Positions 1 through 37,494 of a stretch of DNA of 38,862 nucleotides are shown here, in pieces. The notes below the pieces were generated by a model. That model was not told the origin of the DNA, did not search any database, and worked only from the letters and a program-made list of their open reading frames with translations. Source of the stretch: an uncultured Verrucomicrobiales bacterium (GTDB lineage: Bacteria; Verrucomicrobiota; Verrucomicrobiia; Limisphaerales; JAYPXF01); the NCBI GenBank assembly GCA_937893495.1, contig CALBIE010000779.1, positions 1-38,862 of the forward strand, written 5' to 3'. The position numbers and the translations under genes were made by a program. Numbering within the stretch: the stretch's first letter is position 1; the number at the start of each line of letters is the position of its first letter.

Positions 1-1772
1 GCAACGCTTATTCCCGGTGGCACAATGGCTGATGCGAGATCGAGGGTGGCGAATTCATGAGTGTTCCCCGGCTTCTCGGAATAGACTTGGCGGCCTCCGG
101 GGAAAAGGACATCGGGTTTGGTGGAGCCCTTTAAACCGCATCCCAATGCGCTCACGGGGCTTGGCATCGTTTCCGACGTGATCAGGTCGATACGGTCGGG
201 AATATTTCCGGCTGGTCCGGCGTCTTCGTGTGCCGCCCCGACGGTGACCGCGTTGATGGCATCCGCAGGCGCAAGAATTCTCCTCAGCCTCAAATTCAGA
301 TATAGGGCTCGGAACAGTTCCCGTTCACGATCTTCCGGCAAGAGGTTGCGGAGTTCTGCTCGGGGCACGTTCAGCGTGATCGAACCTGTGTAGTTTCCCG
401 CACTGACACAGAACAGGACGTTGTATTTTACTGACAGCCAATCCAGGAGCCGCCCCCATGCGCTTACTGATGCATGAAACGGTTGCAAAGCGTCGCCGAT
501 TGAGAAGTTGACGACCTTTACGTGCGGGGCCGTCGCCGGGGTGTCGCCATCGCCTTCGAACATGCGCCGAACGCATCGATATGTGAGATCAAGAGAGTTC
601 TTGTAAAACGGGATTCGTTCCGTCGACGAGCCATCCCAACTTCGCCGATCCGGGCGCAGGAGTGGTCGGACATAAAGAGGACGCGGCAACGGACGCCCGG
701 GTGCGTTAAGATCGCCATGCACGATTATCGAGGCCATCGCCGTACCATGGTTTCTCTCCCTGGCGAGATAGTCCGCCGCGAAGTCATCGGGATCGTCGAC
801 AACCAGCCGATCAGTCAATTGCGAGTGATTCTCCAATGGCAGGCCATCGAGCAACGCCACCGTGGGTTCGCCAGCCGGCAAAGGCCTCGATGTGGATTCC
901 GGGCCCGGCTGCACCTCGCTCAAATCTTCCAACGGGACAGAAGTTTGGCCGGATGGTCGGAAGAACATGACTGAGTTTTCTCCCAACAAGCTTGAACCAT
1001 GATTCGCAACCAGAGTTCGTACCTGCGATTCCGGTAGATTGACCATTAGCGAATGGTAGCGAATAGGTTCGATCTCAGCGACCGAGGTTATCTGGCCGCC
1101 CATTCCGGTAATAATCTGACGCACGCGGTCGACTGATTCAGTCCGCTGGCTCACCGTTTCTCGATACCACAATTCGACTTCGAACGGAATGGGTTCGACG
1201 GAATTGTAGCCCGCGATCTCATTCCATTGGTCAACGACGCCCGTATCTAGCAGGCGATCTTCGACGGACCAGGTGCGGAGATCGTATAGCTGTCCAAACA
1301 ACCGGTAGAATGGCGCGAAACCGCGTGGTGCCCCGTCACCACGACTGTACATTCCCCAGAGCCGTAGCATCTGGGCGAGCGCCCGCTGATTGCTCATTGC
1401 CAGAAAGACCCTTCCGGTCAACGACTTGCTCGCGTCTTTAGAATCATGAAAATCCCCGTCCGGATCGATATGATCCACATCCCACTCTGCCAGGTATTCG
1501 AACCCAGGGATACGTTTGGCCGCTTTCAAGAAGTCAGCGATGGCACCAACCGTTTCAAAGACGACGACCTCTTCCGGCACATGTCCGGCGGCCGATATCT
1601 GAAGCTCGGCTTGGCGCTTGGCAAATATCGCTTTCAATGATTTGAAGCTTGGCTCCAAGCGTTCCACTTGCCGGTCGCGAGTGGGGTATTCGTTGTTGCC
1701 GCCCCCTCTTGGCGATCCGCCGGGGCGAACTCTGGCCGGCGTGGGCAACACGAGCAGTGGTCTATCGGACAT
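1..1772 (-). CDS. ietS: Subtilisin-like serine protease IetS, 3' end cut by window edge
   Basis: Reading the minus strand from the ATG at 1772-1770 gives an open frame of 590 codons that runs off the left edge without a stop. The N-terminal 300 residues are an unrecognised domain. A subtilase (S8) core follows: Asp309 in VALLDG, His342 in NHGTAM and the oxyanion Asn460 in VSAGNY. The catalytic Ser should lie beyond the edge, so activity cannot be confirmed here. The start overlaps the stop of the upstream AAA+ ATPase by one base (TAATG), which indicates translational coupling. This pair, ATPase first and subtilase second, is the arrangement of ietAS, known as a plasmid-stability locus and as an antiviral system. 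No signal peptide is visible, so a cytoplasmic location is expected. The family call is firm; the role as defence is inferred from the pairing. Confidence 0.85.
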   Translation of the reverse strand, partial: MSDRPLLVLPTPARVRPGGSPRGGGNNEYPTRDRQVERLEPSFKSLKAIFAKRQAELQISAAGHVPEEVVVFETVGAIADFLKAAKRIPGFEYLAEWDVDHIDPDGDFHDSKDASKSLTGRVFLAMSNQRALAQMLRLWGMYSRGDGAPRGFAPFYRLFGQLYDLRTWSVEDRLLDTGVVDQWNEIAGYNSVEPIPFEVELWYRETVSQRTESVDRVRQIITGMGGQITSVAEIEPIRYHSLMVNLPESQVRTLVANHGSSLLGENSVMFFRPSGQTSVPLEDLSEVQPGPESTSRPLPAGEPTVALLDGLPLENHSQLTDRLVVDDPDDFAADYLARERNHGTAMASIIVHGDLNAPGRPLPRPLYVRPLLRPDRRSWDGSSTERIPFYKNSLDLTYRCVRRMFEGDGDTPATAPHVKVVNFSIGDALQPFHASVSAWGRLLDWLSVKYNVLFCVSAGNYTGSITLNVPRAELRNLLPEDRERELFRALYLNLRLRRILAPADAINAVTVGAAHEDAGPAGNIPDRIDLITSETMPSPVSALGCGLKGSTKPDVLFPGGRQVYSEKPGNTHEFATLDLASAIVPPGISV

Positions 1773-2743
1773 TATTTCGTACGCGCCCGAGACCGGGCTT
1801 TCCACTGCGAAATCCGAGATTTTAGAATCATCGCAGCTTCCTTGTTGTCGTGTGCCAGAACCATCCGCCGGATCACATCCAGAACGAACTCCTCAAGTTC
1901 GGCAAAACTTTCGAATTTTAACTGTTCGGCAATGCTCTTCGCCGACACTCCAGACGGAAACTTCCACTTCGCTTTGGCCATCTGCATCCATTTGGCTGTC
2001 TGAGTCGGAGTTGGCCTCGGCAGTTCCAACCTGAGTTGGAATCGTCGCCAAACCGCCCGATCTAAAAGTTCCTGATGGTTGGTAGCTGCCACGACCACCA
2101 CGTAACTCGGAAGTCGGTCAATCTGCAGAAGCAGCGAGCTCACGACTCGTTTGATTTCTCCGGTGTCATGAACGTCTCCGCGCTCTTTCCCGAGGGTATC
2201 AAATTCGTCGAAAAACAGAACGCACGGGCGATTGACAGCATAGTCGAACAACTTTTGAAGCCGAGTCGCTGTTTCTCCGAGGTAACTTCCGACAAGACTT
2301 TCGTACCGGACTGATAAGAGGGAAACGCCCAAGCCCTTGGCAATCGCTTCGGCAAGGCACGTCTTACCATTTCCTGGAGGGCCGATCAACAGGACCCGGT
2401 TTCGAGGTTCGAGACTATGTGACCGAAGAATATCGGCCCGATGTTGCTCCTCGATAAGCTCCAAGCAGGCAGCGGAAGTCGGCGAGGCCAGGATAAGATC
2501 ATCAATGCTGCGACCGGGTATCTGCTCGTGGAACAGCGCCGAATGAAATCCATTGACTGATTGCGGCACATGGGGAGTGCTTTCGCCGTTCTTGGTGAAC
2601 GCTTTTTCGAGCTGTAACGCGAGCACATTGTGTTGCTTGCCCCGCTCCTCCGCGATGATGGCGTCGACGGTACGCTGGAAAAGGCTGTGGTCGCCTCTGG
2701 ACCCAGCCTTCACCAAGTTTATCAACAAGTCTGATCGCGCCAT
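1772..2743 (-). CDS. ietA: AAA+ ATPase IetA
   Basis: 323 residues with one AAA+ module of the FtsH/Vps4-like type. Walker A is GPPGNGKT (121-128), Walker B is VLFFDEFD (175-182), sensor 1 is at AATN (219-222) and an arginine-finger candidate sits in WRRF (232-235). The first 110 residues are a helical region typical of the partner-binding part of such ATPases. No membrane segment or signal peptide is seen. The gene is the first of a two-gene minus-strand operon with the subtilase, sharing the TAATG junction. In IetAS the ATPase is thought to control or deliver targets to the protease; the mechanism is not established. The start is the ATG at 2743; the ribosome-binding site upstream is weak. 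All catalytic motifs look intact. Confidence 0.88.
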   Translation of the reverse strand: MARSDLLINLVKAGSRGDHSLFQRTVDAIIAEERGKQHNVLALQLEKAFTKNGESTPHVPQSVNGFHSALFHEQIPGRSIDDLILASPTSAACLELIEEQHRADILRSHSLEPRNRVLLIGPPGNGKTCLAEAIAKGLGVSLLSVRYESLVGSYLGETATRLQKLFDYAVNRPCVLFFDEFDTLGKERGDVHDTGEIKRVVSSLLLQIDRLPSYVVVVAATNHQELLDRAVWRRFQLRLELPRPTPTQTAKWMQMAKAKWKFPSGVSAKSIAEQLKFESFAELEEFVLDVIRRMVLAHDNKEAAMILKSRISQWKARSRARTK

Positions 2744-33144: not shown

Positions 33145-33404
33145 TCTTAGCGGGGATCTCGATTTTACTCATTATCAGCAGCGCCAGTTCCGCCAGCACC
33201 CGTTTCGGATCTTTCTGCGAGAACAGGCCGTGCAACTCCCGCTCCCACTCCAGGTCCACCGTCATCACCGACTCGAACTGCCCCGCCCCCCCAATGCTCC
33301 ACCAGATACGTTTTCCCCACCTGCCGCGCGCCCCGCAAGACCAACGGCTTGCGACCGGGACGGTCCCGCCATTCCGACAACAATGCTTGCGCGTTCCTTT
33401 TCAA
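33145..33404 (-). pseudogene. Remnant of an AAA_14/DUF4143-type ATPase, frameshifted
   Basis: From a TTG at 33404 the frame reads LLSEWRDRPGRKPLVLRGARQVGKTYLVEHW, the start of the ATPases of the AAA_14/DUF4143 group with an intact Walker A (GARQVGKT). In a run of seven G near 33290 the reading must shift; the next frame continues QFESVMTVDLEWERELHGLFSQKDPKRVLAELALL, the following segment of the same family. Homology stops near 33145, before Walker B, and the frame then runs through 32919-33144 into sequence I do not recognise. The gene is broken by frameshift and 3' loss. Confidence 0.65.
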
Positions 33405-33933
33405 ATTGGGTTGGATTTAATCAAACTATTCGCTAAAAGACAATTGGATTTCATCACGTCTGCGGTTGGAATCCAAGCCTGAGTTGGTTCAGCGCCCCCA
33501 CCGTCATCCCCTGCTTGTGGGCTTCTTCGTCGATGAAACCGGCAAAGTAGTCGCCCATGCCCATCGCCAGCTCGGGATCGTATTCGTTGTGCCATTGCTT
33601 CAGCCAGGGCAGTAGATCCACCAGGTCGGCCAGCAACGGACGCAGCTTCTCCGCCGACCAGCCGCGGTTCTGGCTCGCGTCGATATAACACGCGGCAAGG
33701 GCTTTGGCCTGTTGCAGAGGATCCCAGCCGGCCCAGGCGATCACAGGGCTGCCGTCCTCGTCCCGTTCGGCCCCGGGATAGATCACCCAGCGCTCCTTCG
33801 GCACGTCCAGCTTGCCGCGCAGTTTCCACCAGCGGGATTTCTTGAAATCCTTGGAGGCGTATTTCGGCGGGACCGGGATTGTGCCAATCCCGCGTTGCTT
33901 CAAATCTTTTGCCTGCCCTGCTGTCAGTCAGTC

Positions 33934-34086
33934 GCGTTCCCCCTCACCCCGGCCCTCTCCCGTCGGGAGAGGGGGAATGGTATCCCGCGTTTGGACGGAG
34001 CCGGACGCTCTCGATTTTCCGGCGACGCTCGTGGCTTCTCCCTCGCCCCTCGGAGGGGAGAGGGCCGGGGTGAGGGGGGGCGAACC
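33934..34086. repeat. Inverted repeat element, family 3, inserted in pglX
   Basis: About 150 bp with perfect inverted ends CTCACCCCGGCCCTCTCCC (left) and its complement (right), each with an inner hairpin. It interrupts pglX between codons for EDAIDA and LTAGQAKDLKQRG. A GACTGACTGAC tandem lies next to the left end and might derive from a target duplication. Confidence 0.8.
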
Positions 34087-35639
34087 CGCGCGTCAATCGC
34101 GTCCTCTTTCCGCTGCAGCTCCCACACGTGTTCCCAGTCCGCGCGCTTGCGCAGGCCTGTGTTCTTGTAGCGCTGGAACGGCAGGAACGGCACGGACGCG
34201 GACTCCACCAGTTGGCGCACGAGTTTACTGATGGAGAAACCGGGCCCGCCGCTGTAGGCCTCCGCCACGCAGAGAAACGCCGTATCCGCTTCGACCGCCG
34301 CTGCCAGTTGATTGGTGGAGACAAGCGCGGGTTCTTGACCGGCGACGAAGGCGTTGCGGAGTCGCGCGATGTCTTCCCCCTCTCCCTGACCCTCTCCGCT
34401 CTGAGCGGTGATGAAATCGGGAGTCGTCGTCCGGCCGTCCTCCATTCCGCACTCCGCATTCAATCATCCGCTCTCGGGGTGCCCCAATTCGCCAGCGTGG
34501 CCGCCGGCGACTGGCGCGGCAGGGCCGTGCTGATTTGGACGAGCGCGGTCGGTAGCTGCGCGGGCTGGGAGGCGGGAAGTGGAAAGTCGGCGACCTTCGT
34601 TCCGTTCATTTGGTAGAAGCGTTCCCACATCTCCGCTTTCGCGCCCTCGTTGACTCCTTGGCTACCTTTGCAGTGGCAAACTTGCTTAATCCAGAAGCTG
34701 CCGAACGAACTATTAAGCACCCCCGACCAGAATCGTGTAATCGGGTTCAGTCGCGGACGAATCCAACTTGATTACCGGCGCAGAGTTCTTGAAGACCGGC
34801 GGGCCTACGTTGAGGACGAAGTTATTGTGGGTAGCTACCTCTCCCCAGCAGATAGCGGTCGGCGTTTTGAGTTTCGACGGATACAGCTCACGCCATTCAT
34901 ACCATTCCAAGCCACACTCCATAACAGGCATGCTGAATCGTTTCCGTGACTTCAGCGCTTGGCGCGTAGGCCACAGGACCATGTGAGACCGGGGAATTTG
35001 GTCGAGTGTCAAGACATCGAACGATCGGTCATAGACCCAGATCGCTTCGTCGCTCTCTTCGAGGCCCCAGTCGCGCACGGCATTTCCTTCAATAAGCGTT
35101 ACCAAATGTTCGAGGTGCAATCGTCTGGCCGTATCGAGTCGGCCAACCACGAAGATTTCGTCCTCACCGTGATTGCGCAGCATCCAATTTCACTGACATA
35201 TCCTCTAACGCGTTGCTGCGCCACTTCTTCGATGCGCACTTTCAACTCGGCAGCGCCACCGCCTCCAGTGCTCCACGGATGCTTGTGGAAATTGGTGCGC
35301 GGAGAATCACCCGCACTAACCCATTCGCTCTCGCTTCCGGGTTCGTCGATTTGCCGGACGATGGCCTGCCAGACAAGGCCCTGCGCTGGGTCGGCGGGAG
35401 TAGGCGGTTCGCCACGAATGCTGAGCACAGTGCGGATGGTGCCACTCACGGGCGGCTGATTTTTCCAAAAAAGTATGACCGTGGGCGTGCCGGGGCCGGG
35501 GATGTAGGTGCCCGCGGTGTCGAGGACGTGCGTGAGGTCCCGGCGCGGGAGGTATTCCACGATGAGGTTCTTGCCAAACTCGCGCTTCATGAAGGCATTC
35601 GCCGTAATCTGCCCGACGAATCCGGCCAGTGTGTCTTCC

Positions 35640-35850
35640 GTAGCAGCCGACGTGAGGAGAATCGGAGCGCCAAAAAGGTGCGGCATAATGCCGTCGAACT
35701 TGGGGAAAAATCAGGGTGTGCCATTTTTACTCATTATTCGGAAGTGCCTCTCTTTCAATACGTTGCAGAAACCGTTCGTTGGCAGGCTCAGACTTCCTGC
35801 TTCGGCTTTAGATGGAGCCTCGTTACCTCGGCTGCTACGAGGGGAACCTT
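35640..35850. repeat. MITE-like element, family 2, inserted in pglX
   Basis: About 210 bp bounded by GTAGCAGCCGACGTGAGG (from 35641) and, inverted, GTAGCAGCCGAGGTAACG (ending at 35847). It sits exactly between the pglX segments FDLAVKG and GFVGQITAN. A single end of the same family, with CGTTCGTTGGCAGGCTCA, is at 14500-14566. No protein is encoded. Confidence 0.75.
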
Positions 35851-35924
35851 TGACCGCGAGGTCGAACAAGCGCTCCATGAAGGGCACGGAGAGCGAATAC
35901 TCGCGGTGGCACGAGGGATAGCGC

Positions 35925-37290
35925 GCGTGGTGGAGCTCGCTGACGGAAACGGGAAAACGGCGCAGCTCCTCCAAAGCGCGAGTCATCCATTGCGGCTCCA
36001 CCGACAAAACCAGGAACGCACCCTCCCGCGCCGAGTAGCGGAGCTTCTCCTCCAGACCGCGCGCGTCCGCCACGTCAGGCGAAACTTCCACACCCGGCTG
36101 CAGAGTCTGGATCGTGGAGAGGCGCGAAGGCAGGGAACGACTCGTCTGGTTCGTGAGCAGACTCTGCGCCTCCGGCTGATGGGCGCCCGCGCCGTCGGCG
36201 AGATGGGAACGCCATTTCAGATCGATGCCCAGCGATTCAAACAGGCCATCCAGTTCGGGATGTCCGGGAAGCGTTTCGGCCTGCGGATAGCGGGCGGAGA
36301 CCCATTGCTGGATTTCTTCCGCGGACCGGGACGCACCGGCTCGTCAATCGTCTCGAAGATGCGCAGCCACTCGTTAAGCATCTCTTCGAGATTATCGAAT
36401 CGTTCGGCGTAATTGGGGCGCAGGGCTTTGGCAAAAAAAAAGACGAAACGCGCGTGCAACTCCGAAGGGAAGAGTTCGCCCACCAGATTGACCTCGCCCT
36501 TGGTGAGGGAGGGCACGGCTCGCCCGTCGCCCCACTTCGGCAGGCTGCCGGTGGCCATTTCATGCAACGTCATCGCCACCGAGAACAACTCGGACTTGGT
36601 ATTCCAGCGTTTGACTTTTCGTTCGCACAAAAAGGGATCCAGGTAAGGAGGCGTGCCAATGGAGATGTTCTCCGCCGGTGCTCCGGCCAGTGAAAAATCG
36701 AACAGGCAGAGTTCGTTGCGTTTCTTGGTCTTACCGACACGGACCCCGATGTTGTCCGGTTTGATGTCTCGATGAGCGACGCCATTTTCGTCCAGGTAAC
36801 GCACCGTCCGGAGCAAATCCTCGCCGAACTGCCGGAGCAGCGTCAGATCGAGTGCCCCATCTTCTCGTATCTGCCGGGCGAGGGTTTGATCCCCGGCGTG
36901 ATCCATCGAAATGCCCAACAGATCGTCGAACTCGTGGAGAGCGTGGACCTCAATCAATTGCGGCCAACCGAGCGATTTGAGAAGTTCAAACTCGTTGCGT
37001 ATCCGGGCGTTCGAATCCGGCGACCGGGCCACCTTGAGAACGAACTGGCGATTCTGTTGTTCGACCAGCAGAGCCACGGCGGTGGCACCTCTGCCGAGAA
37101 TCCGTTTTACAATAAACCCACCCTCCAGGACACAGCCCACCGTCGCTTCATACGGATGAACTACCTCGTAATCGGGACGCGTGAGTTGCTCTTCCACCTC
37201 GTCGAGCTTCTCCAGAAACTCGTCCGCACCGTAGCGAAGAGTCACATCACCGAGCCAAGCTGAAACCGAAGGCCGGAAACGGCGCGCCAA
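35925..37290 (-). pseudogene. pglW: Truncated, frameshifted BREX-2 protein kinase gene pglW
   Basis: The minus frame from 37290 to 36217 holds a Ser/Thr kinase of the PglW type: glycine loop GRGATAVAL, Lys in QFVLKVA, catalytic HRDIKPDN, DFS in place of DFG, and GTPPYLDP. Near 36330 the frame must shift by one base; the next frame gives EEIQQWVSARYPQAETLPGHPELDGLFESLGIDL and then REGAFLVLSVEPQWMTRALEELRRFPVSV, matching the PglW region after the kinase. At about 35925 it joins pglX without a stop, so the end of pglW and the start of pglX are deleted. The N-terminal nuclease-like part usual in PglW is missing; homology starts near 37260 behind a TTG. In BREX-2 the kinase is essential for defence; here it cannot work as such, though the kinase domain alone is an open frame of 357 residues. 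Confidence 0.78.
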
Positions 37291-37405
37291 ACGCCAGTTT
37301 CCGCATGGATTTAAGGAGGCTTACAAGCTAATTCCTTGATAACAAAAAAGACTCATCCACCCTTGTGGGGAAATTTCCTAAAACTTCAAAAAACCATTTA
37401 AAAAG

Positions 37406-37450
37406 TGGTACGCCCGGAGAGACTCGAACTCCCAACCCTCTGATCCAAAG
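37406..37450 (-). tRNA. 3' fragment of a tRNA, probably Gln(TTG): att site
   Basis: On the minus strand the order is: anticodon loop CTTTGGA (anticodon TTG), 3' anticodon stem TCAGA, five-base variable loop, T stem-loop GGGAG-TTCGAGT-CTCTC, 3' acceptor strand CGGGCGT, A and CCA. The 5' half is absent: the bases before the loop (AAGAA) cannot pair with TCAGA. Tyrosine recombinases of integrative elements often use the 3' end of a tRNA gene as att site, and one lies 45 bp to the right. Given the orientation, the element is on the right and the original chromosome on the left. The Gln call depends on which three loop bases are the anticodon. Confidence 0.8.
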
Positions 37451-37494
37451 TTCTTACATTGCTTATGTTCCCTCGTGTGGTTTATTGACCCTCA

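Follow-up and report, generated by a model that had tools for sequence, protein, structure and literature searches.

The closest described system is BREX type 2 (Pgl) with its gene pairs pglW-pglX and pglY-pglZ, which has been characterized in Streptomyces coelicolor (PMC4365076) and is covered by a survey (PMC12839542). In the absence of PglZ, the PglX of Streptomyces is toxic, and its gene undergoes phase variation at a G tract (PMC4365076). Species genomes were scanned with the last PglX piece of the locus described below, which yielded 15 loci, including loci from Verrucomicrobiota with long intact genes. The closest complete pglW and pglX genes are those of loci L036, L037 and L038. All three possess full-length W and X genes plus PglY, and L036 and L038 also contain PglZ. 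The gene order is W, X, Y, Z in L036 and L038, and W, X, Y in L037 before the contig ends. The L037 frames for PglW (1436 codons) and PglX (1318 codons) were used as references.

The window, i.e. the whole stretch of DNA that was analysed, is the complete contig C779 with 38862 bases. It is one of 900 contigs of a 7.98-Mb MAG that is 88% complete and 6.7% contaminated. Profile searches showed that every long open stretch from 37290 down to 33454 on the minus strand matches PglW or PglX of BREX-2. The PglW pieces come first and are followed by the PglX pieces, collinear and in several frames; the first-pass annotation had described such ordered segments on one strand, and the best E-values are 5e-110 (PglW) and 1e-62 (PglX), much better than chance would give. 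Because L036, L037 and L038 show the same order, the W-then-X arrangement of the window is the native one. The locus thus shares with BREX type 2 the PglW and BREX-2-type PglX sequences, the strand and the W-to-X order, but both genes are broken, the catalytic front of PglX is gone, and PglY and PglZ were not found. Compared to L037, about 30% of PglW and about 50% of PglX have been kept. With high confidence, what remains at 37290-33454 is the wreck of a BREX-2 (Pgl) locus that no longer functions; the MAG carrying it has Pedosphaera-type Verrucomicrobiota among its relatives. The earlier claim of a dead BREX-2 locus is borne out by alignment to the intact genes of L037, L036 and L026, and the pieces fit both pglW and pglX in native order. 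The features are as follows (residue ranges in L037 numbering).

36337-37290, minus strand: PglW piece 1, Ser/Thr kinase domain (PglW ~514-811), NF033442 5e-110
35948-36337, minus strand: PglW piece 2 (~1167-1298), NF033442 positions 1132-1251, 3.3e-17, 41% identity to L037 PglW
35933-35960, minus strand: pglW and pglX joined in frame by deletion (~35945); relative to L037, ~1.63 kb is missing
35842-35947, minus strand: PglX piece a (~445-475), NF033451 positions 378-412, 1.9e-7
35639-35839, no strand assigned: family 2 element, 201 bp, inverted ends CGTAGCAGCCGAnGTnA, inserted in pglX (repeat searches)
35183-35638, minus strand: PglX piece b (~476-638), NF033451 1.3e-62
35160-35183, minus strand: small shift of frame from PglX piece b to piece c (alignment to L037)
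34725-35168, minus strand: PglX piece c (~641-787), NF033451 5.8e-33
34718-34726, minus strand: small shift of frame from PglX piece c to piece d, at five consecutive G (alignment to L037)
34463-34720, minus strand: PglX piece d (~789-876), NF033451 2.7e-19
34370-34462, no strand assigned: patch of ~90 bp where PglX has its second deletion; 34380-34397 resembles a degraded family 3 end
34083-34349, minus strand: PglX piece e (~1064-1150), DUF7008, PF22654 2.3e-25, NF033451 5.4e-26
about 33939-34078, no strand assigned: family 3 element, ~140 bp, inserted in pglX (repeat searches)
33454-33909, minus strand: PglX piece f (~1175-1317), DUF7008, PF22654 1.3e-53, NF033451 1.9e-53, 76% identical to L025

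Three internal deletions are visible on comparison with intact verrucomicrobial relatives. The first, of ~355 codons and accompanied by a change of frame, lies at ~36337 between the two PglW pieces. PglW piece 1 also matches the PglW model PDLC02512 (2.5e-108) and Pkinase (1.8e-21), is 49% identical to L037 PglW (tblastn), and has kept HRD and DFS motifs. The front, middle and end of PglW are gone, and the kinase domain and a C-terminal piece remain; as judged from L037, the lost front carries a NERD domain and a first kinase-like region. PglW is present in fragments only, its best match to NF033442 being under the full-length cut-off of 990 bits. The second deletion is the direct pglW-pglX junction, which the first-pass annotation had seen near 35925 and which is confirmed here and placed at about 35945. 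It joins PglW residue ~1298 to PglX residue ~445. In L037 PglX, the SAM-binding motif DPTCGSG is located at 287 and NPPY at 435, both inside the part deleted here; the fusion deletion has thus taken both methyltransferase motifs.

The remainder of PglX consists of six pieces that match NF033451 in rising profile order (378 to 1179) with E-values of 1.9e-7 to 1.3e-62, none of them above the full-length cut-off. Piece a comprises 34 codons that are 85% identical to the L037 frame, and piece f reaches about the native gene end. Between pieces d and e, residues ~877-1063 are missing, which is the second deletion within PglX. Phase variation at the GGGGG frame shift (~34722) was considered and rejected, given how short the tract is and how many other lesions the gene has. 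A further PglX or PglW of BREX-2 type was not found in the MAG (88% complete).

The insertion of both repeat elements into pglX, described earlier as lying at precise points, is confirmed, since relatives are uninterrupted at both places: L037, L036 and L051 run straight through at the family 2 insertion point, and L025 and L026 do so at that of family 3. L036, L037 and L038 likewise are without the insertions of the window at the points compared. The inverted ends of family 2 occur at three sites in the window, compared to 0.05 expected. Family 2 has 49 matches in the genome, the best being 99% identical over 152 bp, and its complete copies mostly measure about 201 or 290-370 bp. Copies of this family (L054-L082) are spread genome-wide, often as ~300-bp versions with palindromic-looking AT-rich flanks. 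Family 3, with 65 matches in the genome, has inverted ends of 26 nt that are 96% complementary. With their inverted ends and many copies, both families are candidate non-autonomous MITE/REP-like elements; a target-site duplication was seen for neither element. Both elements belong to families that are common throughout this genome and were inserted secondarily. The family-3-like end of the patch at 34370-34462 is a weak match with 3 mismatches, and no other copy of the patch was found in the genome. It is possibly a third insertion or a repair patch.

An assembly in 900 contigs with 6.7% contamination might have collapsed an intact locus, or the loci of two strains, into a chimaera in which the repeats are misjoined ends. 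Both repeat families do occur dozens of times in the genome, and one of the frame shifts sits at a run of five G. However, lesions of several independent kinds (deletions, frame shifts and insertions) are found in native order within 3.8 kb, and the deletions at 36337 and 35945 are clean and without repeats. Moreover, the missing ends are nowhere else in the assembly: the search for the PglW end matched only ordinary kinases, and that for the PglX end gave only other methylases. Such an artefact is therefore very improbable.

The first-pass annotation had called the locus one in advanced decay. The gene structure fits this description but the point mutations do not, as the retained blocks of ~1080 codons contain no internal stop. 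A Nei-Gojobori comparison with L025 over 224 codons yielded distances of 0.17 (nonsynonymous) and 1.18 (synonymous), i.e. a ratio of about 0.14, which indicates that most of the divergence arose while the gene was still under selection. These sequence comparisons suggest a recent inactivation driven by deletions. One could argue that the leftover PglW kinase frame of 357 codons was retained as a free-standing kinase when the other BREX-2 parts disappeared, since it is open across 300 aligned codons and has the HRD and DFS motifs. But the clearly dead PglX blocks are equally stop-free, so that an open kinase frame says little, and no in-frame ATG start precedes the kinase domain. A retained kinase is thus very improbable indeed, and the remnant as a whole appears to be without any function now. 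Least probable of all is that the pieces belong to other genes, namely a type IIG restriction-methylase that came to lie beside an ordinary Ser/Thr kinase by chance. Type IIG models do match the PglX pieces, and L026 has a full-length PglX-like gene away from PglW, but every PglX piece scores higher with PglX models than with the type IIG model, PglW models score far above other kinases and also recognize the second PglW piece, and the W-to-X order agrees with intact BREX-2 loci.

The absence of the other BREX-2 proteins, asserted earlier, agrees with the searches for PglY and PglZ. For PglZ, no PF08665 match was obtained in the 88%-complete MAG, whereas two control genomes matched; for the PglY/BrxC ATPase, the query that gives 1e-196 in genome G086 produced no match in the MAG. 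PglY and PglZ are thus likely to be absent from the organism, and the 12% of the genome that is missing could hold PglY, PglZ or a second locus. Given the toxicity of PglX without PglZ in Streptomyces, the catalytic front of PglX was probably lost before or along with pglZ.

The BREX-2 remnant goes back to a locus in which pglX came after pglW, the arrangement of intact verrucomicrobial and proteobacterial loci. From pglW, this locus lost the front and ~355 internal codons; one deletion removed the pglW end along with the first ~444 codons of pglX, and another took ~187 codons within pglX. It also acquired two small frame shifts as well as insertions of two non-coding inverted-repeat elements. 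The proposal that the fusion came first and the repeats later is possible but not supported: the junction and the two elements are separate and do not overlap, and therefore neither the fusion nor the elements date each other. The repeat-like patch lies directly on the breakpoint of the second deletion in PglX, and repeat and deletion may be linked there. The family 2 copy looks young, because it has a 99% match elsewhere in the genome.

The sequence closest to the pglX of the window (76%) is that of L025, from uncultured Pedosphaera sp. Umea_bin-10158. Like the window, L025 holds a remnant, which consists of the pglX C-terminus only (L025, 1-1697; residues ~939-1318); its frame is uninterrupted where the window has the family 3 element, and its downstream neighbour is different. 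Unrelated sequence lies upstream of this C-terminus, at the contig end. The separately truncated pglX in this Pedosphaera MAG hints at recurrent BREX-2 loss in the group. L026 (1-11983) carries a full-length PglX-like methylase without PglW beside it, outside the ordinary BREX-2 order; the end of a PtuA-like ATPase precedes it, and after it comes a frame of 1957 codons that partially matches TmtA.

Two further features are located beyond the PglW end of the remnant.

37398-37451, minus strand: att-like duplicate of the 3' part of tRNA-Arg(TCG), matching the end of contig C186 over 54 nt at 98% identity
37495-38811, plus strand: tyrosine integrase beside the att-like site, Phage_integrase PF00589 2.1e-11

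Contig C186 carries the intact tRNA-Arg(TCG) at its extreme end, and ARAGORN detected no complete tRNA in the window. The integrase had no relative in the phage collection searched. It lies on the upstream side of the tRNA 3' copy, and the BREX remnant lies on the other side. For tRNA-targeting integrases, the upstream side of the 3' copy is usually the island side. The earlier placement of the remnant just on the chromosomal side of a tRNA att site therefore holds, based on the 54-nt copy and the position of the integrase. A third partial 3' copy of tRNA-Arg(TCG) occurs near a contig end (L047, 1490-1541; G000, contig C817), which suggests that integration has targeted this tRNA repeatedly. 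The comparison with sister genomes, which the first-pass annotation had proposed, revealed intact BREX-2 loci in relatives but no empty site: none was found in the tRNA-Arg neighbourhoods of 30 related genomes, in which 19 regions were read over up to 19 kb, and the flanking genes of the window were not at the same place there. The remnant may be part of either the ancestral chromosome or an older island. Genome G009 was rejected as a case of the same junction, because its iscA-hscB genes, although close to the tRNA, lie on the opposite side of it.

Among the accessible literature, no paper was found that treats BREX with PglW together with pseudogenes; two papers mention broken BREX genes beside other systems. 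The locus is real but an ordinary dead defence locus, probably inactivated recently, and changes no general picture. It illustrates clearly how a large defence system can disappear, mostly through several big deletions and with few point mutations; the deletions took the catalytic front of a methyltransferase whose toxicity in the absence of its partner is known. A further dead gene, the remnant of an AAA_14-type ATPase with broken frames (33240-33436, minus strand), lies directly downstream of what is left of pglX; its P-loop reads GARQVGKT, and its match (1.3e-4) is under the Pfam cut-off. The same contig also carries an IetAS-type defence pair (3-2743, minus strand), in which IetA, an AAA ATPase (3e-143), is followed by IetS, a subtilase (2.4e-207) that runs off the contig end.
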